A program made the position numbers and the translations under genes. Under the pieces are notes generated by a model. That model saw only the letters and a list, made by a program, of their open reading frames with translations. It did not search any database and was not told the origin of the DNA. Below, piece by piece: positions 4,386 through 27,331 of a DNA stretch of 41,341 bases. Each line of letters opens with the position of its first letter. Within the stretch, counting starts at the first letter, position 1. The DNA comes from a virus. The stretch lies in the IMG/VR virus record IMGVR_UViG_3300027851_000059, positions 1 to 41,341 of that record. One strand, 5' to 3'.

Positions 4386-4421
4386 CGTCCTTTGGCGCAC
4401 CAATAGCTTGCGGTATGTTTG
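4386..4421 (+). promoter_or_regulatory. Late promoter copy 1 (head genes)
   Basis: GTCCTTTGG at 4387-4395 and TATGTTTG at 4414-4421, then 4 nt, then the GTG start at 4426. Spacing (28 nt to the TA, 40 nt to the start codon) is identical in all five copies. The -7 box fits the Bacteroidota consensus TAnnTTTG; the start codon falls where transcription should begin. Confidence 0.7.
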
Positions 4422-4425
4422 AACC

Positions 4426-5316
4426 GTGAAGTTATTATCAGCTATATTTTTCGGTCACTGGCTCATTGATCAACAATGGGTTGAGCAGGTTGCGTTGCCG
4501 CACATAGTACAGTTGCGCAGCGGAGAGATAAGCCTTGCTGAGTTCAACAAACAAATTACTGAAGGTAAGCAAGCTAGTACACCCAGTATTGTTTCTCCAA
4601 CTGGCTTAGAAGATAAGTACATCTCTGGCAAAGCTGCCAATGGCAGTGTGGGTATCATCAATATGCAAGGCCCATTAATGAAAGCCGATGGCTTTTGTGG
4701 CGAACCTGGTATGATAACCATGGGCAACTGGGTAAAGCAAATGGCCAACGACCCTAAGATAAGCGCCATTGTGTTCAATATGGACACACCAGGCGGTACC
4801 GTAAGCGGTACTATGGAGCTTGCCAACATTATTAAGGCAGTACAAAAACCCACCATTGCTTTTGTTGACGATATGGCCGCTAGTGCCGGTATGTGGATTG
4901 CCTCTGCAGCTGATGAGATTGTAGGCGTGAACCCATTAGCACAAGTAGGCAGCATTGGTGTATATACCCGCTTTGCTGATTTTGGCGACTATTACAAAGA
5001 GCGCGGCATTAAGATTAATGATGTGTATAGCCGCTTAAGCCCCGAGAAAAACAAAGCTTACCGCGAAGCACAGCAGGGCAACTTAGAGCCTATGCGCGAT
5101 GACTTGGATAAGCTGGCTATTGCTTTTAGGGAGACCATGCAAACCAATCGTGGCGACAAATTGAGCGAAGAGGTATTGAAAGGCGGTATGTATTATGCCA
5201 CCGATGCGCTGTCCTTTGGTTTGATGGACCAAGTGCTCAACTTTGAACAGACAATAGCCCGCGCCAGGGAATTGGCAGGGGGAAGTAAACCTAAACGTGT
5301 AAGACAGGTATCATGA
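4426..5316 (+). CDS. S49-family (SppA/ClpP-like) prohead protease
   Basis: This is a phage S49 serine protease, which usually processes scaffold and capsid during head maturation. DTPGG at 120-124 is the oxyanion-type motif. AASAGMW at 151-157 contains the presumed nucleophile Ser153, followed by QVGSIGVYTRFAD (173-185). The general-base lysine probably lies in the Lys-containing segment 191-210. The length is usual for single-domain phage versions. It starts with GTG at 4426, 4 nt after the -7 box of a late promoter, so the mRNA is probably leaderless. It overlaps the scaffold-like gene by 4 nt. Confidence 0.85.
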   Translation: MKLLSAIFFGHWLIDQQWVEQVALPHIVQLRSGEISLAEFNKQITEGKQASTPSIVSPTGLEDKYISGKAANGSVGIINMQGPLMKADGFCGEPGMITMGNWVKQMANDPKISAIVFNMDTPGGTVSGTMELANIIKAVQKPTIAFVDDMAASAGMWIASAADEIVGVNPLAQVGSIGVYTRFADFGDYYKERGIKINDVYSRLSPEKNKAYREAQQGNLEPMRDDLDKLAIAFRETMQTNRGDKLSEEVLKGGMYYATDALSFGLMDQVLNFEQTIARARELAGGSKPKRVRQVS

Positions 5317-5717
5317 AAAAAGAATTCGCCACCTCATTTGCCTTTTTGACTGCATTCTTCACTAGTGCTCAAGGTGAGGGTAACTTCTCTGCCGTTCATG
5401 AAGAAGAAAGCGACTCTTTTTTATTGACTAGCGGCAACTTAGGCTTGCTGAACAATGAATTTGGCCGCATGAAAGCTGAAGTTAAGGCTTCCAACGAAGC
5501 ATTTGAAGCCCAAGCCAACAAGCATACTGAGGCTATTGCCGCCAAAGACGAAACCATTGCGACCTTAAACGCTCGCATTGCAGAGTTGGAGGAAAATACC
5601 CCAAGCGGAGCAGCCAGCACGGTAAAGGCAACATCTGACCCAAAAAACTCAGCTGCCGGTACCGTAAACCAAGAAAGTGCACACATGAAACTCGCTCGCG
5701 AAGCGGGATTATTATAA
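5313..5717 (+). CDS. Head scaffold-like coiled-coil protein
   Basis: A 134-residue protein between protease and capsid, the standard position of a scaffold. Residues about 52-95 form a heptad-like Ala/Glu/Lys coiled coil (RMKAEVKASNEAFEAQ, then IAAKDETIATLNARIAELEE), followed by a Pro/Gly/Ser/Thr linker and a short C-terminal helix (MKLAREAGLL) of the type that docks on capsid subunits. The start overlaps the protease stop (ATGA). The scaffold role rests on position and shape, not on recognised family signatures. Confidence 0.6.
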   Translation: MKKEFATSFAFLTAFFTSAQGEGNFSAVHEEESDSFLLTSGNLGLLNNEFGRMKAEVKASNEAFEAQANKHTEAIAAKDETIATLNARIAELEENTPSGAASTVKATSDPKNSAAGTVNQESAHMKLAREAGLL

Positions 5718-5741
5718 TAGCCCCAAAAACCAAACCTAGCC

Positions 5742-6716
5742 ATGCCAGGATTAGATGCATCAGATATAGCGAGCGAATACGGCTCGTACTATATTAACCA
5801 AGGCCAAAACCTTCAACGTATTGCAACGCAATTAAAGTTGAAGACAAAAACGCCAATGATTGCCACGCCGGTAATTACGAGTGATACCATTTGGCGCGGT
5901 GCTACCGGCAAAATGAGTTCGGTAATACAGGCTTTCCAAAAGAACTTTACCGCGAAAGGCGATGCGACTTTTGAGGCGCAAAAAATTCCGCTTTTCAACA
6001 TCAAAGTTGACTGGGAAGATTACCCGGATGAGATTGTAGAAAACTGGATGGGTTTCTTGGCATCCATTAGCGATAATGAGCGTGCCAACTGGCCAATCAT
6101 CCGCTATATCTTGGAGGCGTATCTGATTCCTCAAATACAGCACGACTTGGAAAGCCAGTGTTACTATTTTGGTGACCACGCTGCCCCAACGCCTGGTACT
6201 GCCGGTATTACCAGCGCTGCCATGGATGGCTTGCGCAAGCAGTTAACTGCTGGCTTGTCAAGCGGCATCAATGACCTATCGGCCATCGGTACCGTAAATG
6301 CCACGAACATCTTTGATAAGGTGGAAGAAATCACCGACAAATTGACGGAGGTTTTCCGCGGGGTGCCTTTGGTTTTAGCCATGAGCACCAAAAACGTGGT
6401 ACGCTACCAGCGCGACCGCCGCAATACCCACGGCACCGACACCGTGCATGACCCGAACAAGCTTACTCCCGATTTTTACGATAGCGTAAAAATTGTTGGC
6501 TTGCCAAGCATGGATGGTACCAGCGACATGTTCCTTACCACCCAAATGAACTTGAAGTATATCCGCCGTTTGGGCAGCGAAAAGCCGTTCAAGGTGGAGA
6601 GCCAAAAGCGCTTGGTAAGCGTAATGAACGACTGGTGGGAAGGTATGGGCTTCCACTTCAATGAATTGGTGTGGTACTATCGTGATCCATCGAGCTCAAG
6701 CAGCTCAAGCTTATAG
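5742..6716 (+). CDS. Major capsid protein with C-terminal oligoserine-leucine tail
   Basis: The size (324 aa), position after protease and scaffold, and a following hairpin fit a HK97-fold major capsid protein. Features include FNIKVDWEDYPDEIVENW (about 85-102) and RRLGSEKPFKVESQKRL (about 276-292), the latter like the last capsid strands. The striking part is the end: after YYRDP come seven serines and a terminal leucine. The serine codons are mixed (tcg, agc, tca), so the tract is not recent slippage. The same ending occurs in the 184-aa protein downstream and the 144-aa protein at 22417. I infer a surface-exposed tag, possibly glycosylated. Confidence 0.75.
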   Translation: MPGLDASDIASEYGSYYINQGQNLQRIATQLKLKTKTPMIATPVITSDTIWRGATGKMSSVIQAFQKNFTAKGDATFEAQKIPLFNIKVDWEDYPDEIVENWMGFLASISDNERANWPIIRYILEAYLIPQIQHDLESQCYYFGDHAAPTPGTAGITSAAMDGLRKQLTAGLSSGINDLSAIGTVNATNIFDKVEEITDKLTEVFRGVPLVLAMSTKNVVRYQRDRRNTHGTDTVHDPNKLTPDFYDSVKIVGLPSMDGTSDMFLTTQMNLKYIRRLGSEKPFKVESQKRLVSVMNDWWEGMGFHFNELVWYYRDPSSSSSSSL

Positions 6717-6744
6717 TAGTTTCTAGGCGGAAACTTTGTTGAAG

Positions 6745-6770
6745 GGGGGTAGTGCTAACGCACTGCCCCC
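6745..6770 (+). terminator. Hairpin after the capsid gene
   Basis: GGGGGTAGTGC (6745-6755) pairs with GCACTGCCCCC (6760-6770) around a TAAC loop, with one wobble, followed by ATATTT. It may terminate partially or stabilise the capsid mRNA. Confidence 0.6.
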
Positions 6771-6800
6771 ATATTTACAAATAAAATAAATTGTTTAACC

Positions 6801-7355
6801 ATGTTGTTAGATATTGCAGGTAACCCAACCGATAACCAAGGCGGCATAGCCTCTTACCTTGGATTGATTTTGCTAACAGATATAGCAACCCATGCTACGC
6901 CGCCAAAATCTAACGGCTCAACCCTAGCTGCCCGAACCCAATGGACTGGCGATGTGATACCGAAAGCCGGTAAGGGCTTTGCCAAGTTTGAGATTGTGCC
7001 ATACAAAGGTGGCGTAAATGCCGAATTGGTGGGCGAAACCTTTGGCAAAAGCTTTAAGCCGATGCTTACTTTCAGTATTGCCGGCACTGACCAGGACAAA
7101 GCTGAGTTTGAGAACGTATACCGCCACGGTAAGTTTGCCGCATTATACCTAGACCGCGAAGAGCGCGCCTACTTGCACGGTACCGCTGCAGCTCCGGTGA
7201 TTATAGAAACCGTGAGCGCCAACTTCGGCGATAGCCCAGAGGCGTTCAAAGGTTCATTATTTACTTTGATGTGCTACGCCAACTACGGACACGCGCCTTA
7301 CGCCGGCGCAATAACCTGGTTGACAGGCACAGGCTCAAGCAGCAGCAGCTTGTAA
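6801..7355 (+). CDS. Structural protein (tail tube or head decoration) with serine-leucine tail
   Basis: A 184-residue protein directly after the capsid gene and flanked by two hairpins, which suggests high, separate expression. The sequence is Gly/Ala/Thr-rich with predicted beta content (KFEIVPYKGGVNAELVGE, then SFKPMLTFSIAGTD). It ends in GTG, five serines and leucine, echoing the capsid tail. It could be a decoration protein or the major tail tube protein; I cannot decide. Its tail, like that of the capsid, lies just before the glycosyltransferase-like genes. Confidence 0.6.
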   Translation: MLLDIAGNPTDNQGGIASYLGLILLTDIATHATPPKSNGSTLAARTQWTGDVIPKAGKGFAKFEIVPYKGGVNAELVGETFGKSFKPMLTFSIAGTDQDKAEFENVYRHGKFAALYLDREERAYLHGTAAAPVIIETVSANFGDSPEAFKGSLFTLMCYANYGHAPYAGAITWLTGTGSSSSSL

Positions 7356-7394
7356 TTATTGAGGCTTGTTAGTTGATATTTATAAATCAGGGGG

Positions 7395-7423
7395 AAGGGC
7401 TGCATTGCGCGGCCCTTCTTTTG
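7395..7423 (+). terminator. Terminator before the glycosyltransferase cluster
   Basis: AAGGGC (7395-7400) pairs with GCCCTT (7412-7417), with further GC/GC pairing in the loop, followed by CTTTTGTTT. Confidence 0.65.
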
Positions 7424-7436
7424 TTTAAACACGTTT

Positions 7437-7718
7437 ATGCTCTACATCAATAAAACCGCCAGCCGCTACATACAGTACGGCCCCAAAAAGTACGACCTGC
7501 ACAACCTTACCGAAGACCAGGTAAAAGAATTGTTGCTCATCGGCTGTTTTCATATAGCCATAAGCGATGCGGGGCTGAAGAAGCCCTTGTTTACGGCAAA
7601 AGAAATAGTGCCCTTGGTAACGAATGCGGCTACTGCAGACGAGGCCAGCCGCTTTGCCTGCCTGAGCAGCGCCGCAACCGTTAAAACCGCTTGGCAAAAA
7701 CGCATGGAGCGCCCATGA
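7437..7718 (+). CDS. Uncharacterised protein before the glycosyltransferases (93 aa)
   Basis: The protein starts MLYINKTASRYIQYG and has a helical middle (LTEDQVKELLLIGCFHIAISDAG). It overlaps the first glycosyltransferase gene by 4 nt (ATGA), so the four genes 7437-9625 form one operon. It follows a terminator and no clear promoter is seen; expression may be read-through from the capsid operon. No family recognised. A small head protein or a cofactor of the glycosyltransferases are both possible. Confidence 0.55.
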   Translation: MLYINKTASRYIQYGPKKYDLHNLTEDQVKELLLIGCFHIAISDAGLKKPLFTAKEIVPLVTNAATADEASRFACLSSAATVKTAWQKRMERP

Positions 7719-8269
7719 GCCGCCTACATGCCTTTACGCCCTATGCTGCTGAAGGCCAAACCATAGCCCAAGCCATTGATGAGCAAATGCAAAGCTTAGC
7801 GGCTGACGATTGGGGTTTTATGATGGACCATGACGTGCACCTAACCACACCCGATTGGCACCCTGCTATACGGGCGTGTATTGCGCACAACCCCCATTAC
7901 GGCATACTTACCGTAATGACCAACCGCTGTGGTGAGTTGGCTCACCCTTGGCAGATGCAACCTAACGTGGATGTAAACAACCACGATATACACTACCATA
8001 GGCGCATTGGCAAGCAGCTATTGCAAGCGCATGGTACGTTGGTGGTAGATGTAACCCACATGAAGCGCAAAATGAACGGCGTGGCCATTGCTATCAAGCG
8101 TAGTGTTTGGGACGAACTGAAGCCACGCTTATTGCCCAGGGAAAGCATCTTGAGCTTTGACTTAAAGCTACACCGCTATGCCCGTGACAGTGGCCACTTG
8201 GTAGGGGTAATGCAAGGAATTTATGTATACCATTGGTACCGTGCCGATGGTGTAACCCATATAAGCTAA
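7715..8269 (+). CDS. GT-A-like glycosyltransferase 1
   Basis: I prefer the ATG at 7715 over an upstream TTG because it gives the usual ATGA overlap. The 184-residue protein looks like a compact GT2-type (GT-A fold) glycosyltransferase. WGFMMDHDVHL (33-43) carries a DxD-like motif (D38, D40) that would bind nucleotide-sugar and metal; GILTVMTNR (63-71), NGVAIAIKRSVWDEL (121-135) and the late GIYVYHWYRADG (168-179) are shared with the next gene. It appears to be a paralogue of gene 8274. Substrate unknown; the adjacent serine-tailed virion proteins are the obvious candidates. Confidence 0.7.
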   Translation: MSRLHAFTPYAAEGQTIAQAIDEQMQSLAADDWGFMMDHDVHLTTPDWHPAIRACIAHNPHYGILTVMTNRCGELAHPWQMQPNVDVNNHDIHYHRRIGKQLLQAHGTLVVDVTHMKRKMNGVAIAIKRSVWDELKPRLLPRESILSFDLKLHRYARDSGHLVGVMQGIYVYHWYRADGVTHIS

Positions 8270-8273
8270 CCAA

Positions 8274-8870
8274 ATGGAACAAAGGCCTGAGATAATTCAA
8301 TTTGTGCCATACGCTAAAGAAAACGAAGGCCTTGGTGCCGCTTATCATAATTGTATGCTCCGGTTGCATCAGCACGAGTGGGGTTTGCTGTGCGACTATG
8401 ATATGATGTTTCTTCCTTCCGACTATATGCGCCAGCTGGAAGAAGTGATTATGGCCAACCCGGAATATGATTGTTTTACGGTAATGACTAACCGTATAAG
8501 CAAGCTCAGGCCTCAAGCTATGCAGCTGGCCAAGGTGTTGCCGTTTGACAACCACAATATACCTGAGCACTATACCGAAGCACTTAAGATACAACGTGAT
8601 AAACGATTGAATGTGTTGGGTATAACCAACAAGTGCGAAGAAGGAATACCGGCTACCATGGGCGGGGTGGCCATCCTGATTAAGCGCACGGCCTGGGACA
8701 TCATCAATAGCACTACGGAGCCAGCTCCGCTCTGGACTTTTAAGAAACATCTTACCATTGATGGTAAGATACACAAGCGCTTAAAAACCCACGGCCTGAA
8801 GCTTGGACTAATGCAGGGCGTATATGTTTATCACCGTTACCGCCACGACGGTATAGTACACGTAAAATAG
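8274..8870 (+). CDS. GT-A-like glycosyltransferase 2 (paralogue)
   Basis: It starts 4 nt after the previous gene. It shares the block order of glycosyltransferase 1: WGLLCDYDMMF (36-46) with DxD residues D41 and D43, CFTVMTNRI, GGVAILIKRTAWDI and GVYVYHRYRHDG near the end. It has a longer middle. The pair probably arose by tandem duplication and diverged to add different sugars or act on different sites. Cytoplasmic, with no membrane segment. GT-A assignment rests on these motifs; sugar specificity cannot be read from the sequence. Confidence 0.7.
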   Translation: MEQRPEIIQFVPYAKENEGLGAAYHNCMLRLHQHEWGLLCDYDMMFLPSDYMRQLEEVIMANPEYDCFTVMTNRISKLRPQAMQLAKVLPFDNHNIPEHYTEALKIQRDKRLNVLGITNKCEEGIPATMGGVAILIKRTAWDIINSTTEPAPLWTFKKHLTIDGKIHKRLKTHGLKLGLMQGVYVYHRYRHDGIVHVK

Positions 8871-8875
8871 CATCG

Positions 8876-9625
8876 ATGCAAAAGCTAGACCTAGTTTACC
8901 CATTGGCAGCTGAGAGCGCCTGGGACCATAACGAGATACGCTACAGCTTGCGTAGCGCCGAAGCTTACTTCCCTATTAACCAAGTGTGGGTTATAGGCCA
9001 TAAGCCTGCATGGCTTACGGGTGTGCAGCACATACCGCATCCTGATCCGTACCCGGTTGGGCAAAACAAGGATGCGAACATGATACAGAAGATATTGCGG
9101 GTATGCTTTGAGCCTAGCCTTACTGCAGAATTTGTGCGAATGAGCGACGACCAGCTCTTTTTAACGCCTTGGATAAAAGAGGTGCAAGGCTTGCCCAGGG
9201 CACAGCACGAAGTAAATGCCAATAGCGACTTTACGAGCAAGGATTACCTGCAGCGGGTGCGCCGAACTTGGCAAGCTCTTGGTGCCCGCAAACTGGATTG
9301 CCTGAAGTATGAAGGGCACATACCTTACTTGTACGATAAGTACGAGTTTGGGCGTATTATGACCAGTTATGCCTACGGTGCCGATTACGGCCTTTGCATC
9401 AATACCCTGTATTTTAATACCCTTTACCCCAAGCCCATAGCGCCCATCGGCGTGGGTGATATCAAAGCGCAGTTTTTTGGACAGCAAAAACACTTTAGCC
9501 GGAAAGACATTTTGAGACGCATGGAGGGCAAATGGTTTATGAACTATAGCGACCCAGGACTGACACCAGAGCTTAAGCAGGTTATTGAGGAGCGGTTCCC
9601 AACGAAGAGCCGTTTTGAGAAATGA
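8876..9625 (+). CDS. Stealth-like sugar(-phosphate) transferase
   Basis: The 249-residue protein resembles the conserved region 2 of Stealth-type hexose-phosphate transferases and related glycosyltransferases: HNEIRYSLRSAEAYFP (18-33), VWVIGHKPAWL (37-47), an Asn/Asp-rich NKDANMIQKI (64-73) and FVRMSDDQLFLTPW (86-99) with an acidic pair D91/D92. Other Stealth regions are missing or diverged. It follows the two GT-A-like genes by 5 nt, so it probably contributes the first or the extending step of the same glycan. Alternative: a divergent GT-A enzyme without phosphotransfer activity. Confidence 0.6.
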   Translation: MQKLDLVYPLAAESAWDHNEIRYSLRSAEAYFPINQVWVIGHKPAWLTGVQHIPHPDPYPVGQNKDANMIQKILRVCFEPSLTAEFVRMSDDQLFLTPWIKEVQGLPRAQHEVNANSDFTSKDYLQRVRRTWQALGARKLDCLKYEGHIPYLYDKYEFGRIMTSYAYGADYGLCINTLYFNTLYPKPIAPIGVGDIKAQFFGQQKHFSRKDILRRMEGKWFMNYSDPGLTPELKQVIEERFPTKSRFEK

Positions 9626-9649
9626 CATAGTTATTGCTATCTTAGCCAT

Positions 9650-9758: not shown

Positions 9759-9761
9759 TCT

Positions 9762-10037: not shown

Positions 10038-10099
10038 GGCGCCCGAGCGGGCTGATACGCAGTAGACCGGTGGGGCTACTTGCTGCAATCCACTGGCGC
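10038..10099. other. Compact structured element after gene 9762
   Basis: GCCC/GGGC make a tetraloop hairpin (10041-10052). AGTAG (10061-10065) pairs with CTACT (10076-10080), while CCGGTGG (10067-10073) pairs with CCACTGG (10090-10096, one wobble), again interlocked. GCGCC (10039-10043) can pair with GGCGC (10095-10099), an alternative to the CCACTGG pairing. No T-tract follows, so it is not a plain terminator. Confidence 0.4.
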
Positions 10100-10101
10100 G
10101 A

Positions 10102-10441: not shown

Positions 10442-10477
10442 TGTCCTTTGGTGTGCAATGTTGGTGTGGTATGTTTG
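10442..10477 (+). promoter_or_regulatory. Late promoter copy 2
   Basis: TGTCCTTTGG at 10442 and TATGTTTG at 10470-10477, then GGGT and the ATG at 10482. Spacing equals the other four copies. It decides the start of the next gene in favour of 10482 over 10458. Confidence 0.7.
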
Positions 10478-10481: not shown

Positions 10482-10730
10482 ATGAAGAACTTTAAGATAT
10501 TGCGCACGTTGTTTATGGCCCTGCTATTGGGTGCGGCCATGATGGTAAGCGGTAATGCCATTGCGCCAGAGAACCATACCGAGATATCCATTTTTGCAGA
10601 CCAAGCCCCAGTGCTTACCAATGCGCCACCAGTGGTAGTAGCGGGAAGCAAAAGCCTTGTTGCCGTTGATGCAAAAAGCTACACCCTTGTTTCTCGCCCT
10701 CTGTTGGGCATTCGTGGACAGGACTGTTAA
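10482..10730 (+). CDS. Small secreted or periplasmic protein (82 aa)
   Basis: The late promoter places the start at 10482 (MKNFKILRTL). Residues 1-26 form a signal peptide: positive n-region, hydrophobic core LFMALLLGAAMMVSG and AIA before the likely cleavage site. The mature part is short and Val/Ala-rich, and ends RGQDC with one cysteine. It has its own promoter and terminator and so forms a one-gene late unit. Possible roles are superinfection exclusion or envelope weakening during lysis; neither is shown by the sequence. Confidence 0.6.
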   Translation: MKNFKILRTLFMALLLGAAMMVSGNAIAPENHTEISIFADQAPVLTNAPPVVVAGSKSLVAVDAKSYTLVSRPLLGIRGQDC

Positions 10731-10800: not shown

Positions 10801-10836
10801 TGTCCTTTGGAGTGCAATTGCACCTTGATACCTTAG
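10801..10836 (+). promoter_or_regulatory. Late promoter copy 3 (terminase operon)
   Basis: TGTCCTTTGG at 10801 and TACCTTAG at 10829-10836, then TGGT and the ATG at 10841. A palindrome GTGCAATTGCAC (10812-10823) lies in the spacer, similar to GTGCAATTGCA at 9671 and 14904, and may bind a regulator. Confidence 0.7.
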
Positions 10837-10840: not shown

Positions 10841-11677
10841 ATGGATAAGAAACAACTCAAAGAGATAAACGATTGGCTTAATAGCGATCGGGATTTCGAC
10901 AGCGGTGTAGCCCTTTACGACCGTTTAGGCAAAAACCGCAACCTGAAAAGAAACTTCCAGAAGTTTAATAACTACAGCGCTGAGAAGTTGCCTTACGAAA
11001 TAGCAAAACTTGCGGGCTTGCCATCAGATGGCAGATGGGCCGTAAAAGATGCTGCAGCAGCCAAGGATGCGCCCGACCCGCTGTTGGGTATTGGTAGTGG
11101 CCAAGTTGCCACCGATGCGCCCACAACCCCAGAAATAGGCGAAAATGAGCCATTGGCAGAAGAGACAACCCCGCAAGAAACCACTCCAAACGACAGCATC
11201 AAGCCTGATGTAGATGCGCCGCGGGAGGTATTGGATATTTGGAGTGCTTACCTAAAGGCATACGACATGATGCGCGATGCAAAAGGCCGTATGAAAGAGT
11301 TGCCTGAAGATGCTGAGCACGACGAGCGCCGCAATGAGCTGGCTAGTGATATAGTTAGCCACCGCGATTATATTACCGAAGCCAGGAGGTTGCTGGAGTA
11401 TTATAAAGCCAATGGCTCTTTGCCAGCCACAGAAACACCTGCAGATGAAGTAGCAGCTGTTGTTGTATTGCCTGAGGTAGCGGCGGCTACCAATGTGCCT
11501 AAGCCAGAATCGTTGCCGAAAACGTTGGATTTGACCAAAGAGGCCGATGTGGCCAAGCGCATAGCTACTTTGGGCACTTACATAAGTAAGCACGCGGATA
11601 AGCCAGTGCTTAAGGCCAAATATGAGCTGGAGCGTGATTATTTGCGGGGTATTTTGAATAAAACAATAGCCCTGTAG
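10841..11677 (+). CDS. Uncharacterised acidic phage protein (278 aa)
   Basis: Three parts are visible: an N-terminal helical domain (about 1-70, starting MDKKQLKEINDWLNSD), a Pro/Thr/Glu-rich low-complexity linker (about 75-125), and a helical C-terminal half with two regions (about 127-195 and 230-278) separated by another Pro/Ala/Val-rich linker. The C-terminal helices are charged and coiled-coil-like. It heads the operon leading to the terminase genes, and its start is fixed by the late promoter. Not recognised; a head-assembly or internal virion protein fits its position. Confidence 0.6.
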   Translation: MDKKQLKEINDWLNSDRDFDSGVALYDRLGKNRNLKRNFQKFNNYSAEKLPYEIAKLAGLPSDGRWAVKDAAAAKDAPDPLLGIGSGQVATDAPTTPEIGENEPLAEETTPQETTPNDSIKPDVDAPREVLDIWSAYLKAYDMMRDAKGRMKELPEDAEHDERRNELASDIVSHRDYITEARRLLEYYKANGSLPATETPADEVAAVVVLPEVAAATNVPKPESLPKTLDLTKEADVAKRIATLGTYISKHADKPVLKAKYELERDYLRGILNKTIAL

Positions 11678-12273: not shown

Positions 12274-12545
12274 ACGAAGAGGAGCTAAAAGAACTGGAGC
12301 AGTGCGGAGCGGCTTGGCTTTCGCCAGCCGATACGGCGATAGTTATGGGCCTTGATTTGCTGGAGTTTACCGAACTGATGGAAGCCAATGGACCTGAACA
12401 CCTGGCCTATATGCGAGCTAGGCTGAAAAGAACGGTTGCCTACCGAAACAGTATACTTGACCTTGCCGTTGCCGGCAGTGCGCCAGCCCAAGAGCTGGCC
12501 TTGAAGCTTTACAAGCAGCATGTAATTGACAATACAGACTTATGA
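12270..12545 (+). CDS. Small protein before terminase (91 aa)
   Basis: I chose ATG at 12270 (MNEEELKELEQCGAAW), which overlaps the PLD-like stop as ATGA; an earlier ATG at 12222 would sit deep in that gene. Residues 15-40 (AWLSPADTAIVMGLDLLEFTELME) look like a helix-turn-helix. The last part is helical (AQELALKLYKQHVID). It overlaps the small terminase gene by 4 nt. Position and possible HTH suggest a helper of DNA recognition in packaging. Confidence 0.55.
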   Translation: MNEEELKELEQCGAAWLSPADTAIVMGLDLLEFTELMEANGPEHLAYMRARLKRTVAYRNSILDLAVAGSAPAQELALKLYKQHVIDNTDL

Positions 12546-13126
12546 CCTTACCCAGTAGCAAACAACCGCTTAGAAGCCAATACCAACGCATTGAGCACTA
12601 CTACGCTACTGGCGATGAAAGCGTATTAAGCTTTGACGATGAAGAAGTTAACAAACGTTGGCTAACGGCCCACGATTTGTTGTTTAAGATAAAAAGTACC
12701 CGGCAGGTTGCCAAAATGCTAGTGGCAAGGTTCCAGATATCGCTGCGCGTTGCTTACCTCGATATCAATTGCGCCCGGGAGCTCTTCGCATTTACTACCC
12801 TTACTCGGAGGGCAGCACTGGCCAAAGTGCAACAAATGGCCGAAGAGGTTTATGAAAAAGCCTTGGTAGCTGGCGACCTTAAAACGGCCGACTCGGTGAT
12901 CGGGCGCTTAGTTAAAGCCTTCCAATTGGATAAGCCCGAAAAAGACATCCTCAACCCAGATGATTTTAGGCCCATTATATATGCCACATACGACCCCAAA
13001 GATTTGAAAGTTGGAGCTGTGAAAGGCGACTTGAGGAAGCGCACCCAAGCTTATTTGGAAAACAAAGCAAAGGCCAAAGAAGAGGATATAGACTTTGAAG
13101 AAGTAGAAAAGCCGACAGATGGTTGA
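12542..13126 (+). CDS. terS: Terminase small subunit
   Basis: The 194-aa protein lies immediately upstream of the large terminase and overlaps it by 8 nt. Residues 40-75 (RWLTAHDLLFKIKSTRQVAKMLVARFQISLRVAYLD) have the HTH-like pattern of small terminases with a following helical region (about 80-125) suited to ring assembly, and a charged, lysine-rich C-terminal tail. It would bind the packaging site on concatemeric DNA. The assignment rests on gene position plus HTH-like sequence. Confidence 0.7.
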   Translation: MTLPSSKQPLRSQYQRIEHYYATGDESVLSFDDEEVNKRWLTAHDLLFKIKSTRQVAKMLVARFQISLRVAYLDINCARELFAFTTLTRRAALAKVQQMAEEVYEKALVAGDLKTADSVIGRLVKAFQLDKPEKDILNPDDFRPIIYATYDPKDLKVGAVKGDLRKRTQAYLENKAKAKEEDIDFEEVEKPTDG

Positions 13127-16979: not shown

Positions 16980-17015
16980 TGTCCTTTCGTAATGCGTTCC
17001 GGTATGGTATTTTGG
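16980..17015 (+). promoter_or_regulatory. Late promoter copy 4 (portal, lysis and tail genes)
   Basis: TGTCCTTT at 16980 and TATTTTGG at 17008-17015, then TACC and the ATG at 17020. The -7 box is the most diverged of the five, but all spacings are kept. Confidence 0.65.
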
Positions 17016-17019: not shown

Positions 17020-17301
17020 ATGAATTTAAGAGAAGCCATATCACTCATGCAAAGCAGAGACCAAAAAGGTCAGCCTGCTATCGTTTCAATCAAATTTATC
17101 AAGCATAGCAAAGCCACTGGCAAAGGCGGTCAGATAAGATTGATTGCCAAAGCGCAACTCAACTCCATGCTTACCGGAGTGCACAAAATTCAATTTGCCA
17201 CCATCGACGTTCGAGACCTCGACGAAAAAGAGCCCAGTCGAATGATTAAGAAAATACACACCGATTTGATTACCGAAGTAAACGGAATAGCTGTAGTATG
17301 A
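17020..17301 (+). CDS. Small protein before portal (93 aa)
   Basis: Starts MNLREAISLM directly at the late promoter. Residues 20-40 (AIVSIKFIKHSKATGKGGQIRLI) form a basic, beta-like segment and the rest is mixed. It overlaps the portal gene by 4 nt. Similar small basic proteins precede portal genes in Bacteroidota phages, but I do not recognise a named family. A role in packaging or head-neck assembly is inferred from position. Confidence 0.6.
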   Translation: MNLREAISLMQSRDQKGQPAIVSIKFIKHSKATGKGGQIRLIAKAQLNSMLTGVHKIQFATIDVRDLDEKEPSRMIKKIHTDLITEVNGIAVV

Positions 17302-18635
17302 AAGATGAGGTAATAATTGATCCAACCAGTTCAGCTGCATATCTGCCTGGCGTAAATGCAATGGTAGCTTTGCAAACCGAAAACACACGTCCAACGGTGG
17401 CCAACTCCAAAACGGAGATAAAAAGTACCGTTGGCGAGTATAATGTTGCGCCTTGGGGCGATTCCAACGATAGGCCTACTGCTGTTTATAATAAGGTTAA
17501 AAAAATCAGCATCATTCCCAAAAGCCTCGAATTGCTAATCAAGCTCACTCATGGCCAAGGTATTCGCTATGGCTTTGTCAAAGATTTTGATGCCCAAGGC
17601 AAAGAGGTGCTAGAGTTCAGAAGGGATGAAACTATTGAAGCCTTTCTTCGCGACAGTAACATCAACTCACTCTATCTTCCCGAAGCTATTACCGATCTGA
17701 AATGGTTTGGCAATGTATTCGTCGAACTTATCTTAAATAAAGCCAAGTCGCAAATACTTGCAGCCGTGGTTCAAGAAGCGCCCTATTGCCGCTGGACCAC
17801 TAGCAACACCATGGGCTTTAGCGAGAATTGCATCATCTCCGCCGATTGGCCTTCCCCTGGCGACAATTTCATCGCGGTACCATCTTTTGATATCTACGAT
17901 TACCAAAAGATTGATAAGCTCAAGAAACGAAGGCTAGAGCGTGTCATGTTTCCCATGTCGTTCCCTTCGCCCATGAAAATCTACTACCAAGAGCCTGCTT
18001 GGTGGAGCTTGGTTGATAGTGGCTGGCTAGAGTTGTTGGAGTTGATACCTAAGTTGAAATCTTCAATCTTGAAGAATCAAATGAACATCAAGTATCTCAT
18101 ACGCATTCCTTGCACCTACTGGCCCAACAAATACAAAAATTGGAAAACGCTGGAGCAAGATCAGCGAAATGCGATTTACAAATCAGAGCTGCAGAACATC
18201 AACGACTTGCTCACCGGTGTCGAAAAAGCAGGGTCGAGCATTATTACCCAATTTGATGTAAACCAAGATACCGGCAACGATTTTGGCAAGTGGGAAATCA
18301 TTGCCATCAAAGATGAAATAAAAGAGGGTATCTACAACACCGATAGCCAAGAAGGCACTTCACAGTCGCTTTACTCCATCGGGGTAGATCCTTCTGTGTT
18401 TGGTTTATCCATCGGTAAAGGTATGGGCGCTGGTAGCGGCTCCGATGCACGGGTGGCATTCAATATCATGGATGTACTTTCAACACCTGAGCGCGAAAAG
18501 CTCGTGGCGCCATTGCACTTAATCCGCGACTTTAATGGCTGGCCACCTGAGTTAAGGTTCTTTATTCCTGGCCATCAGATTGCAACTCTCGATACTGGTA
18601 AAGAAGTTCAACCCAAAACCCAACCACAGGAATAA
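17298..18635 (+). CDS. Portal protein
   Basis: A 445-residue protein in the size range of portal proteins. Signs include VKKISIIPKSLELLIKL (early helix), ITDLKWFGNVFVELILNK (wing), the long helical segment WKTLEQDQRNAIYKSELQNI and a late GVDPSVFGLSIGKGMGAGSG region before the stem, followed by ERLV-like helix and an acidic/Pro end. The portal would form the dodecameric DNA channel at one capsid vertex. It is unusually separated from terL by the accessory island 14781-16979. The stop and next start overlap (TAATG). Confidence 0.75.
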   Translation: MKDEVIIDPTSSAAYLPGVNAMVALQTENTRPTVANSKTEIKSTVGEYNVAPWGDSNDRPTAVYNKVKKISIIPKSLELLIKLTHGQGIRYGFVKDFDAQGKEVLEFRRDETIEAFLRDSNINSLYLPEAITDLKWFGNVFVELILNKAKSQILAAVVQEAPYCRWTTSNTMGFSENCIISADWPSPGDNFIAVPSFDIYDYQKIDKLKKRRLERVMFPMSFPSPMKIYYQEPAWWSLVDSGWLELLELIPKLKSSILKNQMNIKYLIRIPCTYWPNKYKNWKTLEQDQRNAIYKSELQNINDLLTGVEKAGSSIITQFDVNQDTGNDFGKWEIIAIKDEIKEGIYNTDSQEGTSQSLYSIGVDPSVFGLSIGKGMGAGSGSDARVAFNIMDVLSTPEREKLVAPLHLIRDFNGWPPELRFFIPGHQIATLDTGKEVQPKTQPQE

Positions 18636-21553: not shown

Positions 21554-22420
21554 ATGCTTCCCGTAAACCTCATATACAGAAGTAGCAGGCATAGGTTATA
21601 CCTAGCAACTGGCACCCATGAACTCACAGGTGACCAAGCAGCCCGTTTATACGAGCTGCAGCATAGCCAACCATCTTATGATGAATACTGCTCTAAGTTG
21701 GCTGCCATTATTTTAAAGCCCAGCATATTCAATTTGCGCCAACTCGCTTGGATTCTTGCTATCAACAATGAAGCCTTTGAGCAATTAACCCCAGCATTAG
21801 AGCCATTTCTACCAATATCGGCTGGGTCAAATAATGGTACTCAAGATCTTCAGCTCGTTTTTAGTAACCGTCAAGAGAAACAAGTATTACCTCGATTCTG
21901 GTACAAAGGATGGTTCTATGAAGGCCCCAGTACCCGGTTATCCAATATTACCTTGGAGGAGTTTGCCTATGCCGATTATTACTTCCTCCAGTACCATAAA
22001 AACCCATCGCGCGACAATATGCTGCTATTGTTAGCCTGTTTATACAGGCCTTGGCGTTGGGACAATCTCCGGCAGTATGGCGATGCAAGGCAGCAATTCA
22101 ATAGCCATACTATCGAAAGCAGGGCTGCTCACTTCGAAAGCACATTGCCCAGGTATGGCTATTATTCCTTAGAGTTTTTCCGTTCTGGGCGTGAGCTTAT
22201 TACAGAGCGGTTCAAAGACCTATTTAGCCAAGAAAATAAAGGTAAAGCGTCCAGTAGCGGCAATGGATGGGTGAACCTAATGTACAGCATGGCAGGTCCA
22301 CAATTCGGAACGGTACAACAAACTGGGCAAACTAGGCTTGGCGATGTATTGCTATACTGCCGCCAGCTGAAGCAAGAAAATGAAAGAATTGAAGCACAAA
22401 GAAATAAAAACGGATTATGA
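21554..22420 (+). CDS. Uncharacterised structural-region protein (288 aa)
   Basis: Starts MLPVNLIYRSSRHRLYLATG one base after the previous stop. Two helical halves are visible; PRFWYKGWFYEGPSTRLSNITLEEFAYADYYFLQY (about 113-147) is aromatic-rich. A late segment GKASSSGNGWVNLMYSMAG precedes a helical C-terminus. It resembles no family I can name, but genes of this size between lysis and tail genes recur in Bacteroidota siphoviruses. It overlaps the next gene by 4 nt. A neck or tail-completion role is likely. Confidence 0.55.
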   Translation: MLPVNLIYRSSRHRLYLATGTHELTGDQAARLYELQHSQPSYDEYCSKLAAIILKPSIFNLRQLAWILAINNEAFEQLTPALEPFLPISAGSNNGTQDLQLVFSNRQEKQVLPRFWYKGWFYEGPSTRLSNITLEEFAYADYYFLQYHKNPSRDNMLLLLACLYRPWRWDNLRQYGDARQQFNSHTIESRAAHFESTLPRYGYYSLEFFRSGRELITERFKDLFSQENKGKASSSGNGWVNLMYSMAGPQFGTVQQTGQTRLGDVLLYCRQLKQENERIEAQRNKNGL

Positions 22421-22851
22421 ACTACATATTGCTACTTGACTTTGGAGGATTGGATGCCGGTGAAGTATTTCTGCCAACTGCAGAACCTACTATATATAGT
22501 TCTTCCTCCAATACCGATTTTTTAATGTTGCTGGCCACCATGCAAGCCCTGCCCGATTACTTCCTGCAGGCGGTAAGTTTTAATGCTCAAGATAAATTGG
22601 CTGGCATTGAAAAAGCAATGGTTGACTCGGTAACCTGGACACCTGCCGTTGGCGATTATTACTCCGATTACAACCAAGAGCTCGACCTCTACAAAATCAC
22701 CGGCATTGTAGGAGATGAATTTTCAGTGCTCAAAATAAATGGTAACCTAACAGGCATAACCAATCCATTCCTAGAAGCAATATCAGGCTTCGAAACCGAC
22801 CGATACCAAGTATTGCACCCATCTCCATCATCTTCATCAAGTAGCTTATAA
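22417..22851 (+). CDS. Tail-region protein with C-terminal serine-leucine tail
   Basis: A 144-residue protein between putative neck and tail-terminator genes. It has an early Tyr-Ser-Ser-Ser-Ser stretch (27-31), an aromatic middle (PAVGDYYSDYNQELDLYKI) and ends HPSP, six serines, leucine. The serine codons are mixed (tca, tct, agt, agc). Its ending repeats that of the capsid and 6801 proteins although the bodies are unrelated, so the tail is a portable tag. The body may be a head-tail joining or tail-tube-associated protein; undecided. Confidence 0.6.
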   Translation: MNYILLLDFGGLDAGEVFLPTAEPTIYSSSSNTDFLMLLATMQALPDYFLQAVSFNAQDKLAGIEKAMVDSVTWTPAVGDYYSDYNQELDLYKITGIVGDEFSVLKINGNLTGITNPFLEAISGFETDRYQVLHPSPSSSSSSL

Positions 22852-23345
22852 TGGGCCTAAATAGCAGCTATAGAACCTACTTTAAGTCTTTGGCCAACAG
22901 CCATGCCGATTTAGGAGCCGGGCAAAGTGATAACCACTTTGCTTTGGTTTCCTTCTTTCAGTTCAACGATGCTATCCGTAGCAAAATAAGTTGGCCATGT
23001 CTCGTTGCGGAACCTGCAGATATGAAAATAGACGGCCCTAATGAGAGCCAGACCATGGACAATTTTACGGGTGCTATTGCCATTTACCAAAAAGTAAGCG
23101 CCCGGAACGATACCCCCGAACAGAAAGATGATAAGGCCGATGAAGCACTTACCATTCTCAAAGAAGTGCTATCCAAAATGAAAGCAGATGCTCAATCGGG
23201 TACAGCTCATTACTTGCTTCGCAAATTTGAAATACGAACCTCAAGCATTCTGAAAATTGAAGAAAACGACTATGTTGGTTACCGTGTTGAGTTCACCTTT
23301 GGCTATAACTACAACTACAAACCCGATCCAAACAAATGGCTATAA
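22851..23345 (+). CDS. Tail terminator/completion-like protein
   Basis: A 164-aa protein whose order and size fit a tail terminator: helical early part, AIAIYQKVSARNDTPEQKDDKADEALTILKEVLSKM (about 75-110) and a beta-rich end (YVGYRVEFTFGYNYNYKPDPNKW). The closing strand with alternating aromatics is seen in terminators that cap tail tubes. It overlaps the serine-tailed gene by 1 nt and the next tail gene by 10 nt. Assignment is from position and shape. Confidence 0.45.
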   Translation: MGLNSSYRTYFKSLANSHADLGAGQSDNHFALVSFFQFNDAIRSKISWPCLVAEPADMKIDGPNESQTMDNFTGAIAIYQKVSARNDTPEQKDDKADEALTILKEVLSKMKADAQSGTAHYLLRKFEIRTSSILKIEENDYVGYRVEFTFGYNYNYKPDPNKWL

Positions 23346-24919
23346 CCATAATTTACGAAACAGCAGCTCAATACTATGCCGGTAGCCCTATGGCATTTCG
23401 CCTACAAACCGATAAGTATGTGCAAACGCCAGGGCAAAAAATAGCAGTTGTTATTGTTATTACTCCAGGCAACGAACCCGGTGTCGGTGATATAATCGAA
23501 ATAGCCTCAAACTGGGGCTTTACGCTTACGTTTACCTTCGTGGCAAGCAATCCATCAACCAATGAGCTTACTGCTTACAGCAGTGGCACGCTAGCTGCTT
23601 ACATTGCACAATTGATAGCCGAGCTTCAGCAAAATTACGTTATCGGTACCTTTTTCGATTTAGCAGATACTAGCCCACTGGGTTACACCTTCGGTTCAAT
23701 CACTTTGTCCAAAAGAGATAGCGGTATCATTAATCTATCGGGCAATACCGGTGGTTTTTCGGTGGTCCATTCCAATGTGGTTATAGATCCTGTTTATCGC
23801 CCAAACTTCTCTTTTATATTGGAGCTGTATGTTGAGCAGCCATACAATAGCGGCAATTACGGTAAAGCTACTTCGCAGCTGGCCAATGCTGTTTTTAACC
23901 CCGTGCCCAATGCCGATAGCCAAGCCGATGTATACATCAATGATGTGCTCTACAGCTTCTTGACTTTCGATTTTCCGCAATTGCCTGCCGATAATATTTT
24001 GGCAAAGCTTTGCACCAACATACAGGTTAGGTGTTGGTTGCGCATTACAGAGGCATACGGCAATCCGGTTACGGTTCAGCCTTGGAGCCAGTCATTGTAC
24101 CGCTTTGGCTTTGGCGTAAAAGGAACTATCAAAGATTCGGAATACAACCAGGCTTACGACCCATCTCCTGCAGCTGGCCCAACGGTAAACAAGTTTATGA
24201 CTCGTTGCCCCGATAAAGAAGTATTGCCCAACCAACCAGAGTGGCTTACCTACCGTAGAGATGATGTAGCGATCAACAACATCCTCATCAAAGTAACCTT
24301 TGCCGATGGTACCTTATACTCTGCCGGCACCGCTCCACAAATAAACAAGAGCACATTAGATGCCGTAAGTGGCGAAAATGATGTAATAATGATTGAAGCG
24401 GGTTATGCTCAGCTTGGCCTTGATGCGCTCCCTAGTTCAAGCCCTGTGGCAAAATGGGAAATCCAATTCCTAGATGCTGCCAACGATACGCTTTACAAGC
24501 CCAAGGTATATTATCTAAAAGACCAGCCTTTTCTATACGTCCGTTACTTTATCTTTCAAAACAGCCTTGGTGGGGTTGATACCCTGCGTTGCACTGGTAC
24601 CTTAACCAAGCTGCACAAGGTAGAGCGCGAAAAATCATACCGTGCCAGGGAATTTACCTTTCAGAACCCACAGCGCTTGGTTATCAGTACCGTTACCGAT
24701 GAGGAGATGATGTACGAACTCAATACTGGCCACATCAAAAAAGCTTATGCAGATTATCTGCAGGAGTTTTTGCGTAGCGAGTATGTGTATGAGTACAAAA
24801 ATGGCGCTTATTACCCGGTGCAAATAGAACCCGGTAGTTGGGAGTTGTTTGAGGAAGGCAAAGGCATGTACAGCATTACTTTTAAGTTTATTACAGCTTA
24901 CGAAGAAACCGTTTACTAA
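23336..24919 (+). CDS. Large tail protein (527 aa)
   Basis: A mostly beta-structured protein starting MAITIIYETAAQYYAGSPMAF. It contains Pro/Gly-turn-rich segments and a helical C-terminal region (EEMMYELNTGHIKKAYADYLQEFLRSEYVYEYKNGAYYPV). The first half (about 10-160) looks like an Ig- or tail-tube-like domain, the middle (250-340) contains a conserved-looking YNQAYDPSPAAGP. Similar proteins occur in the tail clusters of Bacteroidota phages. Candidate roles are distal tail protein or tail tube; I cannot decide. It is coupled to the next gene by TAATG. Confidence 0.5.
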   Translation: MAITIIYETAAQYYAGSPMAFRLQTDKYVQTPGQKIAVVIVITPGNEPGVGDIIEIASNWGFTLTFTFVASNPSTNELTAYSSGTLAAYIAQLIAELQQNYVIGTFFDLADTSPLGYTFGSITLSKRDSGIINLSGNTGGFSVVHSNVVIDPVYRPNFSFILELYVEQPYNSGNYGKATSQLANAVFNPVPNADSQADVYINDVLYSFLTFDFPQLPADNILAKLCTNIQVRCWLRITEAYGNPVTVQPWSQSLYRFGFGVKGTIKDSEYNQAYDPSPAAGPTVNKFMTRCPDKEVLPNQPEWLTYRRDDVAINNILIKVTFADGTLYSAGTAPQINKSTLDAVSGENDVIMIEAGYAQLGLDALPSSSPVAKWEIQFLDAANDTLYKPKVYYLKDQPFLYVRYFIFQNSLGGVDTLRCTGTLTKLHKVEREKSYRAREFTFQNPQRLVISTVTDEEMMYELNTGHIKKAYADYLQEFLRSEYVYEYKNGAYYPVQIEPGSWELFEEGKGMYSITFKFITAYEETVY

Positions 24920-26883
24920 TGGATAATGGCATCAAACTAACGGTAGGTGGCCAAGTGGTCGAAGTGTTGATAGATACCATCGACATGGATTACCAGATTA
25001 CCAATATCGAAACCATGGGGACCGTGGATAGCAATAAAAGCTTTCCTATATCGGCACCATATACCCAAGCCAACCATTTGGCTTTTGAGCATCTGAATGT
25101 ATTGGCACTCGAAAACCGATTGCCATACAAAAAGATACCGTGCACCCTGGAAGACAATGGCACCCCATTGCTAAAAAATGGTGTTTGCCGCATCAAGAAA
25201 ACAGGTAGGCAATATGAATTAGAGATTGGTGGCGGCAACTATGATATGGTAGATGCCATTAAAGATTTGAAGCTGCAAGATTTGGATTGGGCGGAGTATG
25301 ATCACTTTTGGACACTGGCAAACGTTCATGCCAGCCGTAACAATACCGAAGGCTATATTTACTTGGCCAACAATTACTTTACCGACTTGGCCACAGCGCC
25401 TATTGATAACATCGATAGGGTAATACGGGTCGATTATATCTACCCTTGCGTTTTTTTGCATAGCATCCTTACCAAAATGGGTGAGTATACCGGTGTTGCA
25501 TTTCAAGGCGACTTGCTCCAAACCCAAAACTTCAAAGATTTGGTTCTTCCGTTTGTTAGAAGGGATTATGTGAGAAATACGGATGGTAGAAAATACTTGG
25601 CAGCTTTTAAATTTAATAATGATATAGCACCAAACTCAACAATAGTTTATGTTTACCAAAACTTACAAGTAACTACCCCTGGTACTTATTTTAATCTGGG
25701 AAGTGCTGGCGTATTTCAAAATTTTTTTTGGTTTGCGGACGATGTAACGGTCACTTTTAAATTTACTTTATTTGTCGAGGCATCATTTAATGGTACTATT
25801 AAAATTAGATATACTTACTTTGATGGCTTTAACCAACAAACTGGAGAACAACTATCCTATGTCAACTTTATTAGTGGAACGATAGTAAAATACATAACGC
25901 TAACTTCCCGAAGAGGAATTAGTCAAGTTGCGCTTATCGCGTTTGAATTTGGTGTAGCTATACCGGGTTCGGGCAATAGAATAACAGCTGACTCAACTAT
26001 AGAGATTGTAGCATGTACAATAAACAAAGCTGGCAATATATCATTTTTGCCAAATGCTGGACCCAACTTCGTTACCTTATCAAGCGCATTGCCCGATATG
26101 AAATGTGGCGATTTACTCAAGGCGCTGGCCAATATGTTCGGATTGCTCTTTCAGTACGATGAAGCCAGCAACACCATGAAAGTGGAGCAAATAGCCAAGC
26201 TATATGCCAATAAACCCAAAGCAGATGATTGGACAGAGCTCATTGACCCCACAACCGCGGTAGTGGAATACGAGCTGGGCAATTACGGCCAAAACAACAG
26301 AATGGTTCTTTCCAATCCCGATGGCATCGATACGCTCCAGGGCAGTTATAACTTTACCATCGACAATGAGCACTTGGCACCTGAAAAAGAAGTGTTTAAG
26401 TTGCCGTTCCAATGGACCGATAATGTTCAATTGCTGGAAGACTTAACCGTAGCGCATATACCCATTATCGCAGCCGAAGAAGACCCAGACGTTTCAGGCC
26501 AATACCTGTATAAGCTCTCTGGCGATAGTAAGCCGCGCATACTATCGGTGATCAGGGAAGATGTAAGCGCAAACAATTTGGCTTACTATGATGGCGTAAG
26601 TACCCTCAATAGCAGCATAGCGCCACTAGGTTACTACTACCGTGCCGATGGCACCAATAACCTTGACCTCAATACCTTAATCACTGCCAACCAATTGGAG
26701 CAAATAACCATGCTCAAAAAAAGCAGAAAGGTAACCTTAGAGGTAGCGCTTACCGCTAACCACATCAATAGCCTTGATTTTTTTGTGCCTGTATATATTC
26801 GCACCTGGGCAAAATACTTCTATAAGAATCGAATCAGCCGCAAAACCAAGGGCATGAGCAAAGTAGTGTTGGTAGAGCTGTAG
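24919..26883 (+). CDS. Tail tip/baseplate protein with an AT-rich insert (654 aa)
   Basis: The first 130 residues (VDSNKSFPISAPYTQANHLAFEHLN, then ENRLPYKKIPCTLEDNGTPLLKNG) resemble baseplate-type beta domains of Bacteroidota phages. Residues about 215-385, encoded by 25555-26075, are different: strongly AT-rich, aromatic, beta-sandwich-like (YFNLGSAGVFQNFFWFADDV, GTIKIRYTYFDGF), while flanking sequence returns to normal composition. I read this as a swapped domain, likely in host recognition. The last third is Asn/Leu/Asp-rich. The late promoter for the tape measure follows. Confidence 0.55.
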   Translation: MDNGIKLTVGGQVVEVLIDTIDMDYQITNIETMGTVDSNKSFPISAPYTQANHLAFEHLNVLALENRLPYKKIPCTLEDNGTPLLKNGVCRIKKTGRQYELEIGGGNYDMVDAIKDLKLQDLDWAEYDHFWTLANVHASRNNTEGYIYLANNYFTDLATAPIDNIDRVIRVDYIYPCVFLHSILTKMGEYTGVAFQGDLLQTQNFKDLVLPFVRRDYVRNTDGRKYLAAFKFNNDIAPNSTIVYVYQNLQVTTPGTYFNLGSAGVFQNFFWFADDVTVTFKFTLFVEASFNGTIKIRYTYFDGFNQQTGEQLSYVNFISGTIVKYITLTSRRGISQVALIAFEFGVAIPGSGNRITADSTIEIVACTINKAGNISFLPNAGPNFVTLSSALPDMKCGDLLKALANMFGLLFQYDEASNTMKVEQIAKLYANKPKADDWTELIDPTTAVVEYELGNYGQNNRMVLSNPDGIDTLQGSYNFTIDNEHLAPEKEVFKLPFQWTDNVQLLEDLTVAHIPIIAAEEDPDVSGQYLYKLSGDSKPRILSVIREDVSANNLAYYDGVSTLNSSIAPLGYYYRADGTNNLDLNTLITANQLEQITMLKKSRKVTLEVALTANHINSLDFFVPVYIRTWAKYFYKNRISRKTKGMSKVVLVEL

Positions 26884-26919
26884 TGTCCTTTAGTTGACCA
26901 TATAGCCATGCTACTTTAG
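26884..26919 (+). promoter_or_regulatory. Late promoter copy 5 (tape measure genes)
   Basis: TGTCCTTTAG at 26884 and TACTTTAG at 26912-26919, then TAGT and the ATG at 26924. Spacing is identical to the other copies. Confidence 0.7.
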
Positions 26920-26923
26920 TAGT

Positions 26924-27331
26924 ATGGAATTCAATTTAAACGAGGACATTGCCGCCGAAATTGAAAGGTTAAACCTAAGCGTAAAGTCTTGGACGGCTAA
27001 AACATTGAGCCTTGTAAGGGGCGATGTTATCCATTTGGGCGTAGTATCTAGTGGTGAGCTGCTGGAGTCGTTGCAGTACCGAATCCGTAAAAAACAAGGC
27101 CTGCCCGACAAAATAAGCCTGCAACTTAAAAGGTACGGTATCTTCCAAATTTATGGCGTAGGCCGTGGCGTTAAAGCAGCTACGGCATCTCTAAGCAGTC
27201 GTAAAAAGCGCGATTGGTACAATGTAGTGCTCGAAAAGCAACTACCAACCCTCGAAGAAGAATTGATGAACAGCGTTGCCGATATCGCCATCCGAAACCT
27301 ACCGGTTAGCATTAACAACTCAAACAACTAA
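26924..27331 (+). CDS. Protein before tape measure (135 aa)
   Basis: It starts MEFNLNEDIAAEIERL at a late promoter and ends 2 nt before the tape measure ATG. The sequence is helical with a basic middle (RIRKKQGLPDKISLQLKRYGIFQIYGVGRG) and resembles small phage proteins of minor-tail or HK97-gp10-like shape. Its position suggests a tail assembly chaperone or a tail completion factor, but no slippery frameshift site was seen. The family is not certain. Confidence 0.5.
   Translation: MEFNLNEDIAAEIERLNLSVKSWTAKTLSLVRGDVIHLGVVSSGELLESLQYRIRKKQGLPDKISLQLKRYGIFQIYGVGRGVKAATASLSSRKKRDWYNVVLEKQLPTLEEELMNSVADIAIRNLPVSINNSNN

Follow-up and report, generated by a model that had tools for sequence, protein, structure and literature searches.

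A putative class of late promoters, pairing a TGTC-core box with a host-type -7 box, in temperate phages of Bacteroidota

The complete IMG/VR virus record IMGVR_UViG_3300027851_000059 (41,341 nucleotides (nt); this whole stretch is called the window below) carries five copies of a two-part element, in which an upstream box, TGTCCTTT or once CGTCCTTT, is followed at a fixed distance by a box resembling TAnnTTTG. The five sites are probably late promoters of a temperate Bacteroidota phage, in which a -7 box of host type would be combined with a TGTC box read by a phage factor. The initial annotation had located all five correctly to the letter (Table 1), and its two distances are exact at every site: the boxes begin 28 nt apart, and the start codon lies 40 nt from the first base of the upstream box. 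The open reading frames (ORFs) opened by these start codons encode 82-296 amino acids (aa) each. The pattern (T/C)GTCCTTT-N20-TAnnTTnG-N4-RTG occurs five times on the + strand of the window and never on the - strand, and a chance origin was rejected because the combined pattern gave no match in 200 dinucleotide shuffles of the window. All 8-mers of the window were also ranked, with at most one mismatch per 8-mer and without giving the upstream box beforehand, by their excess 20 nt upstream of a -7-like box. TGTCCTTT came out first (11 occurrences vs a mean of 0.75 at other spacings); in the same ranking of other genomes, one by one, it or a one-letter neighbor came first in only part of them. 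The second box had been described as TAnnTTTG, which in full fits just two of the five copies, whereas TAnnTTnG fits all five. At -33, TTTG is found in three of the five copies and the other two read TTTC or TTTA. All five sites have a G two bases 5′ of the second box and a pyrimidine preceding the start codon. The weaker site at 5210 has no start codon close by, the next ORF (5313) lying 103 nt on, and this match may be due to chance.

A scan of related phages for the motif had been proposed in the initial annotation; when it was carried out, the motif recurred in relatives at the same fixed spacing between the boxes. Searching IMG/VR with the pattern GTCCTTT-N20-TANNTTNG-N4-ATG gave at least 119 stretches, and the matches listed include 112 distinct sites, 97 of which open an ORF of at least 60 codons or run off the contig. 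Columns left unspecified by the pattern are conserved among these 112 sites: a T precedes GTCCTTT in 80%, the seventh base of the second box is T or C in 84%, and a pyrimidine precedes the ATG in 90%. The second box of the class has the consensus TAnnTT(T/C)G, with C at position -6 in 30% of the sites. Of 50 whole records scanned, the 45 chosen because of a match carry the pattern, 12 of them with two to three matches always on one strand, and the reversed pattern was not found. Spacing was then compared in 26 phage genomes, namely the window and 25 IMG/VR genomes (whole or first 40 kb) picked from the 45 motif-bearing records, favoring those with at least two sites and dropping several with tiny-ORF matches. 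The exact box pairs number 52 and every one has spacing 20, with none at 14-19 or 21-26. We also assembled a set blind to the motif, consisting of 80 loci fetched by terminase similarity alone, from which four contigs known from the motif scan were dropped to leave 76. In these loci, 25 exact pairs are at spacing 20 vs 1 over 16 other spacings, and with at most one mismatch the numbers are 94 vs 44. The late strand holds 90 of the 94 spacing-20 pairs, and such a pair is present in 50 of the 76 loci. Isolates chosen without regard to the motif carry sites as well: Porphyromonas phages phage019a (4) and phage026a (4), Cellulophaga Ingeline_1 (5), Bacteroides BT-TP2 (3), Polaribacter Leef_1 (2) and a phage labeled as infecting Microcystis (2). 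The last one (MZ447863.1, L312) has the same promoters and shares its terminase (37%) and tape measure protein (37%) with the Bacteroidota lineage, which casts doubt on its host label.

The sites precede genes of related function in different phages, and we call these genes late from their content. The genes at four of the five window sites resemble genes found in other phages by the motif alone. Among 29 compared genomes (the window, the 25 phages of the motif scan, and three isolates picked by protein similarity), the first or second gene after a site belongs to the portal family in 25, the tape measure family in 21 and the protease family in 12; families were tabulated only if present in at least three genomes. 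Alignment scans covered 71 of 99 viral and 57 of 86 chromosomal downstream ORFs. The virion genes are common to the window and its relatives (portal in 29/29 genomes, large terminase in 28, and protease, capsid, adaptor and tape measure in 27 each), and by this comparison the 25 motif-scan phages and the window form one phage lineage. Two window proteins other than the tape measure protein, used as queries against viral_contigs, found one relative or none.

Host chromosomes show no enrichment of the element over background. In 198 Bacteroidota genomes, 31 exact sites were found in 23 genomes vs about 98 for the reversed pattern, and four of the 31 sit in one prophage-like cluster. The chromosomal locus scan gave at least 119 stretches. 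Among 14 bacterial genomes picked for having a site, four have all of their three to four sites on one strand of a 12-30 kb stretch. A host gene family encoding AraC/DJ-1 type regulators (L197, L233 and other loci) in Pedobacter, Mucilaginibacter and Chitinophaga also shows the pattern, and the start codon lies at +40. Two copies in this family (G052 and G056) read TGTCCTTTGAGACAAAT, in which TGTC and GACA form an inverted repeat that is perhaps the family's own operator. Taken together, the strict spacing, the late strand, the location before late genes, the orthologous targets and the lack of a chromosomal excess give good support to the phage late promoter class proposed initially.

What is recognized in the upstream box is indicated by related Flavobacterium phages of the same lineage, which have other boxes before the same genes. 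Phage laban has five of five exact copies of TGTCACAA with a -7-like box at spacing 20. Phage 1H has four of four exact copies of TGTCTTAA with a -7-like box at 19, and 6H has three at 19 and one at 20, of four. TGTC is common to all the boxes, and TTTG is absent from TGTCACAA and TGTCTTAA. Because these variants precede the same genes without TTTG, a TGTC-core box rather than the TTTG -33 element seems to be read. The element had been described as GTCC added to the -33 box; it does occupy the -33 region, but it is better seen as a TGTC-core box replacing the -33 element. The variant boxes point to a sequence-specific factor acting at the -33 position and varying from phage to phage. TGTC followed by unlike suffixes showed no excess at spacing 20 over all collected genomes (116 vs 68-143 at other spacings), so further variant boxes are not common; laban and 1H/6H alone yielded variants.

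The -7 element of Flavobacterium johnsoniae lies at -12 to -5 and transcription starts 4-5 nt beyond it, according to the available text of PMC6847099. If the second box is placed in this register and the codon is counted from it, the start codon would coincide with the predicted +1 at all five window promoters. A pyrimidine is found at -1 in 95% of 97 leaderless-type sites vs 58% of 767 other ATG starts in the same phages; a pyrimidine followed by a purine is favored at bacterial transcription starts. Among the 94 motif-blind sites, the distance of 4 nt from the second box to the start codon occurs in only 30, with a second peak near 20, and a fixed start-codon distance was therefore rejected as a defining property of the class. 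Where it occurs, the fixed distance is best explained by leaderless transcripts, which would be common and not universal. Leaderless translation of the first late genes is very probable as a prediction.

The candidate for the factor reading the TGTC box is a basic protein of the family that we call c11, whose members have about 160-200 aa and whose gene lies one to two genes ahead of the protease gene. An iterated profile found c11 in 29 of 32 related proteomes. In the family comparison, which took in the largest families and 119 smaller clusters, c11 is nearly universal, is present as a single copy, and falls on the early side of the early/late boundary. The 29 c11-bearing genomes have 113 sites on the same strand and 2 on the opposite strand. 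All 29 proteins have an isoelectric point of 8.4-10.0, and the family has a conserved basic C-terminal helix. The AlphaFold model of c11 has a mean confidence (pLDDT) of 85.8, and a helix-turn-helix is conceivable for its final helices (112-123 and 132-154). In BFVD, the single match of the model below E 0.001 is the homolog in Polaribacter Leef_1. Weaker structural matches (StbA at Z 4.4, MntR at Z about 3, and late-transcription proteins in BFVD at E 2-4.4) are not regarded as evidence. The BT-TP2 homolog was annotated by its depositors as a "transcriptional regulator", with no basis stated. In bacteria, c11 occurs in 5 of 198 genomes and was found in 10 of the 14 genomes picked for a site; nine of the ten have a site downstream of c11 on its own contig and strand, and in the tenth (G060) it is partial and far away. 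In G051, one of the nine (contig C1, 274914-275381), a c11 copy with an internal stop lies between two promoter sites, perhaps in a decayed prophage. LuxR-type early proteins were rejected as the activator, because annotated regulators of this type also occur in 6H, 1H and laban, which do not share the TGTCCTTT motif. We lean slightly toward c11 as the reader of the box. The assignment rests on position, near-universality and co-location, and shared descent could give all three.

Table 1. Putative late promoters, the genes behind them and the candidate activator gene in the window
Feature	Position	Strand	Details
Candidate late activator, c11 family	2214..2705	+	163 aa, basic; early/late boundary; five promoters all downstream on same strand; start codon chosen by alignment
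Putative late promoter 1	4386..4421	+	Box CGTCCTTT 4386-4393; -7 box TATGTTTG 4414-4421; predicted start 4426 = GTG of head maturation protease gene; register from available text of PMC6847099
Head maturation protease (S49/ClpP type)	4426..5316	+	First gene of late unit 1
Possible weaker site	5210..5245	+	TGTCCTTT with CAACTTTG, a -7-like box one mismatch off; within protease gene
Putative late promoter 2	10442..10477	+	TGTCCTTT 10442-10449; TATGTTTG 10470-10477; predicted start 10482 = ATG of 82-aa protein with hydrophobic N-terminus
82-aa protein, function not assigned	10482..10730	+	Behind promoter 2
Putative late promoter 3	10801..10836	+	TGTCCTTT 10801-10808; TACCTTAG 10829-10836; palindrome GTGCAATTGCAC in spacer; predicted start 10841 = ATG
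278-aa protein	10841..11677	+	Resembles ~220-aa family found in other phages by motif alone
Putative late promoter 4	16980..17015	+	TGTCCTTT 16980-16987; TATTTTGG 17008-17015; predicted start 17020 = ATG of first gene of portal operon
93-aa protein	17020..17301	+	Weakly similar to 87-110 aa family, the commonest gene after the promoter elsewhere among matches listed
Portal protein	17298..18635	+	Family in 29/29 compared genomes; annotated portal in Porphyromonas and Polaribacter phages
Putative late promoter 5	26884..26919	+	TGTCCTTT 26884-26891; TACTTTAG 26912-26919; predicted start 26924 = ATG of gene preceding tape measure gene
Small protein preceding tape measure gene	26924..27331	+	Family includes gene annotated "neck" in Porphyromonas phage019a
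Tail tape measure protein	27334..30900	+	

We propose that host RNA polymerase with the primary sigma factor would read the somewhat degenerate -7 box (TAnnTTnG), while the TGTCCTTT box, 20 nt upstream, would take the -33 region. A sequence-specific phage factor, made before the late phase, would bind the TGTC box and recruit or stabilize the polymerase. With +1 on the start codon at the five window promoters, the first gene of each late unit would be translated from a leaderless mRNA and the later genes would be translated internally. The phage activator suggested initially fits, because the element stays at the chromosomal background, the candidate family travels with the sites, and relatives use another box before the same genes; its binding to the box is the presumed step. 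More tentatively, c11 may found an unrecognized activator family without a clear match to a solved fold. Such a family would take over the -33 contact through a TGTC-core box with 3′ dialects (CTTT, ACAA and TTAA) and drive late units with mRNAs beginning at the initiation codon itself, an arrangement suited to ribosomes that work without Shine-Dalgarno pairing.

Several observations weigh against parts of this proposal. No TGTCCTTT site was found in five tape-measure relatives that were searched, in 26 of the 76 motif-blind loci, or in Flavobacterium phages 6H and 1H, and laban has one weak match. The AraC/DJ-1 type family accounts for 21 of the 86 chromosomal downstream ORFs among the matches listed, and no c11 was found in two of its genomes that were checked. 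Only a minority of the sites in the class have predicted leaderless starts, and leaderless mRNAs are rare in Bacteroidota, at 5.5% in F. psychrophilum according to the available text of PMC9723704; in B. thetaiotaomicron, the available text of PMC7366714 gives about 3.7% with leaders shorter than 10 nt. The variant boxes all come from one phage family, in which differences in regulator and box could reflect shared descent alone. Three genomes with sites (G020, G027 and G032, whose records are perhaps incomplete) gave no c11, whereas G136 has c11 and no clear site in 26 kb. The c11 model has no significant match in the PDB, and the c11 protein of the window has no significant family in Pfam, PHROGs or NCBIfam and no recognized DNA-binding domain there, with a distant relation to Mor/C being possible.

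The promoters could be as proposed and the TGTC box be read by another phage protein or by a host protein instead. The three genomes without detected c11, its lack of a known DNA-binding domain, and the presence of other small conserved families would suit such a reader. One of these families includes the 194-aa product of 12542-13126, found in 28 of 32 proteomes and encoded 5′ of the large terminase gene. We regard this alternative as possible but unlikely, given that c11 is the single-copy, early-side and nearly universal family and lies beside sites in nine bacterial genomes, whereas the 12542 gene is inside the late region and adjoins the large terminase; its product is probably the small terminase subunit. 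An alternative sigma factor of phage or host that reads both boxes would account for the strict, sigma-like spacing and for the degeneracy at -6 of the -7 box. It is improbable: the second box retains most of the TAnnTTTG primary consensus, no sigma-factor domain is among the 25 Pfam families assigned to 54 window proteins (E 0.01; the tape measure protein was outside the scan), and the upstream box varies between phages while the -7 box stays, which suits a separate factor for the upstream box.

Still less probable are ordinary host promoters in which TGTCCTTT is a strong -33 element for the primary sigma factor, as the TTTG in three window copies and the AraC/DJ-1 family might suggest. We rejected this explanation on the chromosomal count, which is below that of the reversed pattern despite the many TAnnTTTG promoters of the hosts; moreover, the sites are clustered in one stretch on one strand, and the boxes of laban and 1H lack TTTG. 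A role at gene starts as a signal for translation, packaging or recombination would explain the fixed start-codon distance in the window. Yet 64 of the 94 motif-blind sites have no start codon at +40 while the spacing between the boxes is fixed, the second box is a known -7 element, and the sites precede operons on the coding strand, so that a signal of this kind is very hard to credit. Phage late promoters with a host-type -7 box and a TGTC box read by a phage factor remain our preferred explanation.

The layout of the window and its spacers offers further observations. The record appears to be a circular genome linearized within the primase gene, because the left end (22-1416) encodes a family occupying the primase position of annotated phages, the right end holds early genes and an integrase gene, and the virion genes begin at 4426 and end at about 31 kb. 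Four TGCACAA words (1977-2093), which separate the primase-like gene from the candidate activator gene, resemble an origin iteron or operator array, and the spacers of two late promoters hold GTGCAAT words related to them. Palindromes centered on CAATTG are found in the promoter spacers of the 220-aa and 251-aa gene families (window 10812-10823; L021, L048, L068, L087, L091, L092 and L105) and are perhaps a second operator.

How virion genes are switched on in temperate Bacteroidota phages has hardly been described, in a phylum that is dominant in the gut, the mouth and the sea. Literature searches on Bacteroidota phage late promoters and on TGTCCTTT gave no description of the element in the available text of the sources, and a word search of the available text of PMC10367356, on Porphyromonas phages, gave no promoter, late gene or transcription. 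The present analysis supplies a recognizable promoter with a strict architecture, together with a gene inventory; it also names a candidate activator and provides natural variants for comparison. With the motif, late operons could be delimited and start codons corrected in many prophages that lack annotation, and the element could serve as a phage-specific promoter tool for Bacteroides. Leaderless translation also becomes testable in a phylum where leaderless mRNAs are rare.

Primary sigma (sigma-ABfr) promoters of Bacteroidota consist of TTTG at -33 and TAnnTTTG at -7, and the -33 element is weak in F. johnsoniae, as given in the available text of PMC6847099 and PMC7366714. The promoters described here are alike in most letters of the -7 box and in its register to the predicted start site; they differ in that a strictly spaced 8-bp TGTC box replaces the -33 element, position -6 is degenerate, and there is no chromosomal excess. 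Like known leaderless mRNAs of Bacteroidota, their transcripts would have the start codon at or near +1, but here this is predicted for five of five window promoters and about a third of the class. The late promoters of phage Mu are activated by protein C. As in the Mu system, the same upstream box precedes several late operons of one phage and the activator gene, here the candidate, lies ahead of the late genes; in contrast to Mu, no C/Mor-like domain was found in c11, the host polymerase is another one, and many starts are predicted to be leaderless. In the middle promoters of phage T4, a MotA box takes the place of the -35 element. The two systems are alike in having an activator box, here a putative one, at the -35/-33 contact of sigma with the downstream box intact, whereas the promoters described here serve late genes in another phage and host, with no MotA- or AsiA-type protein identified.

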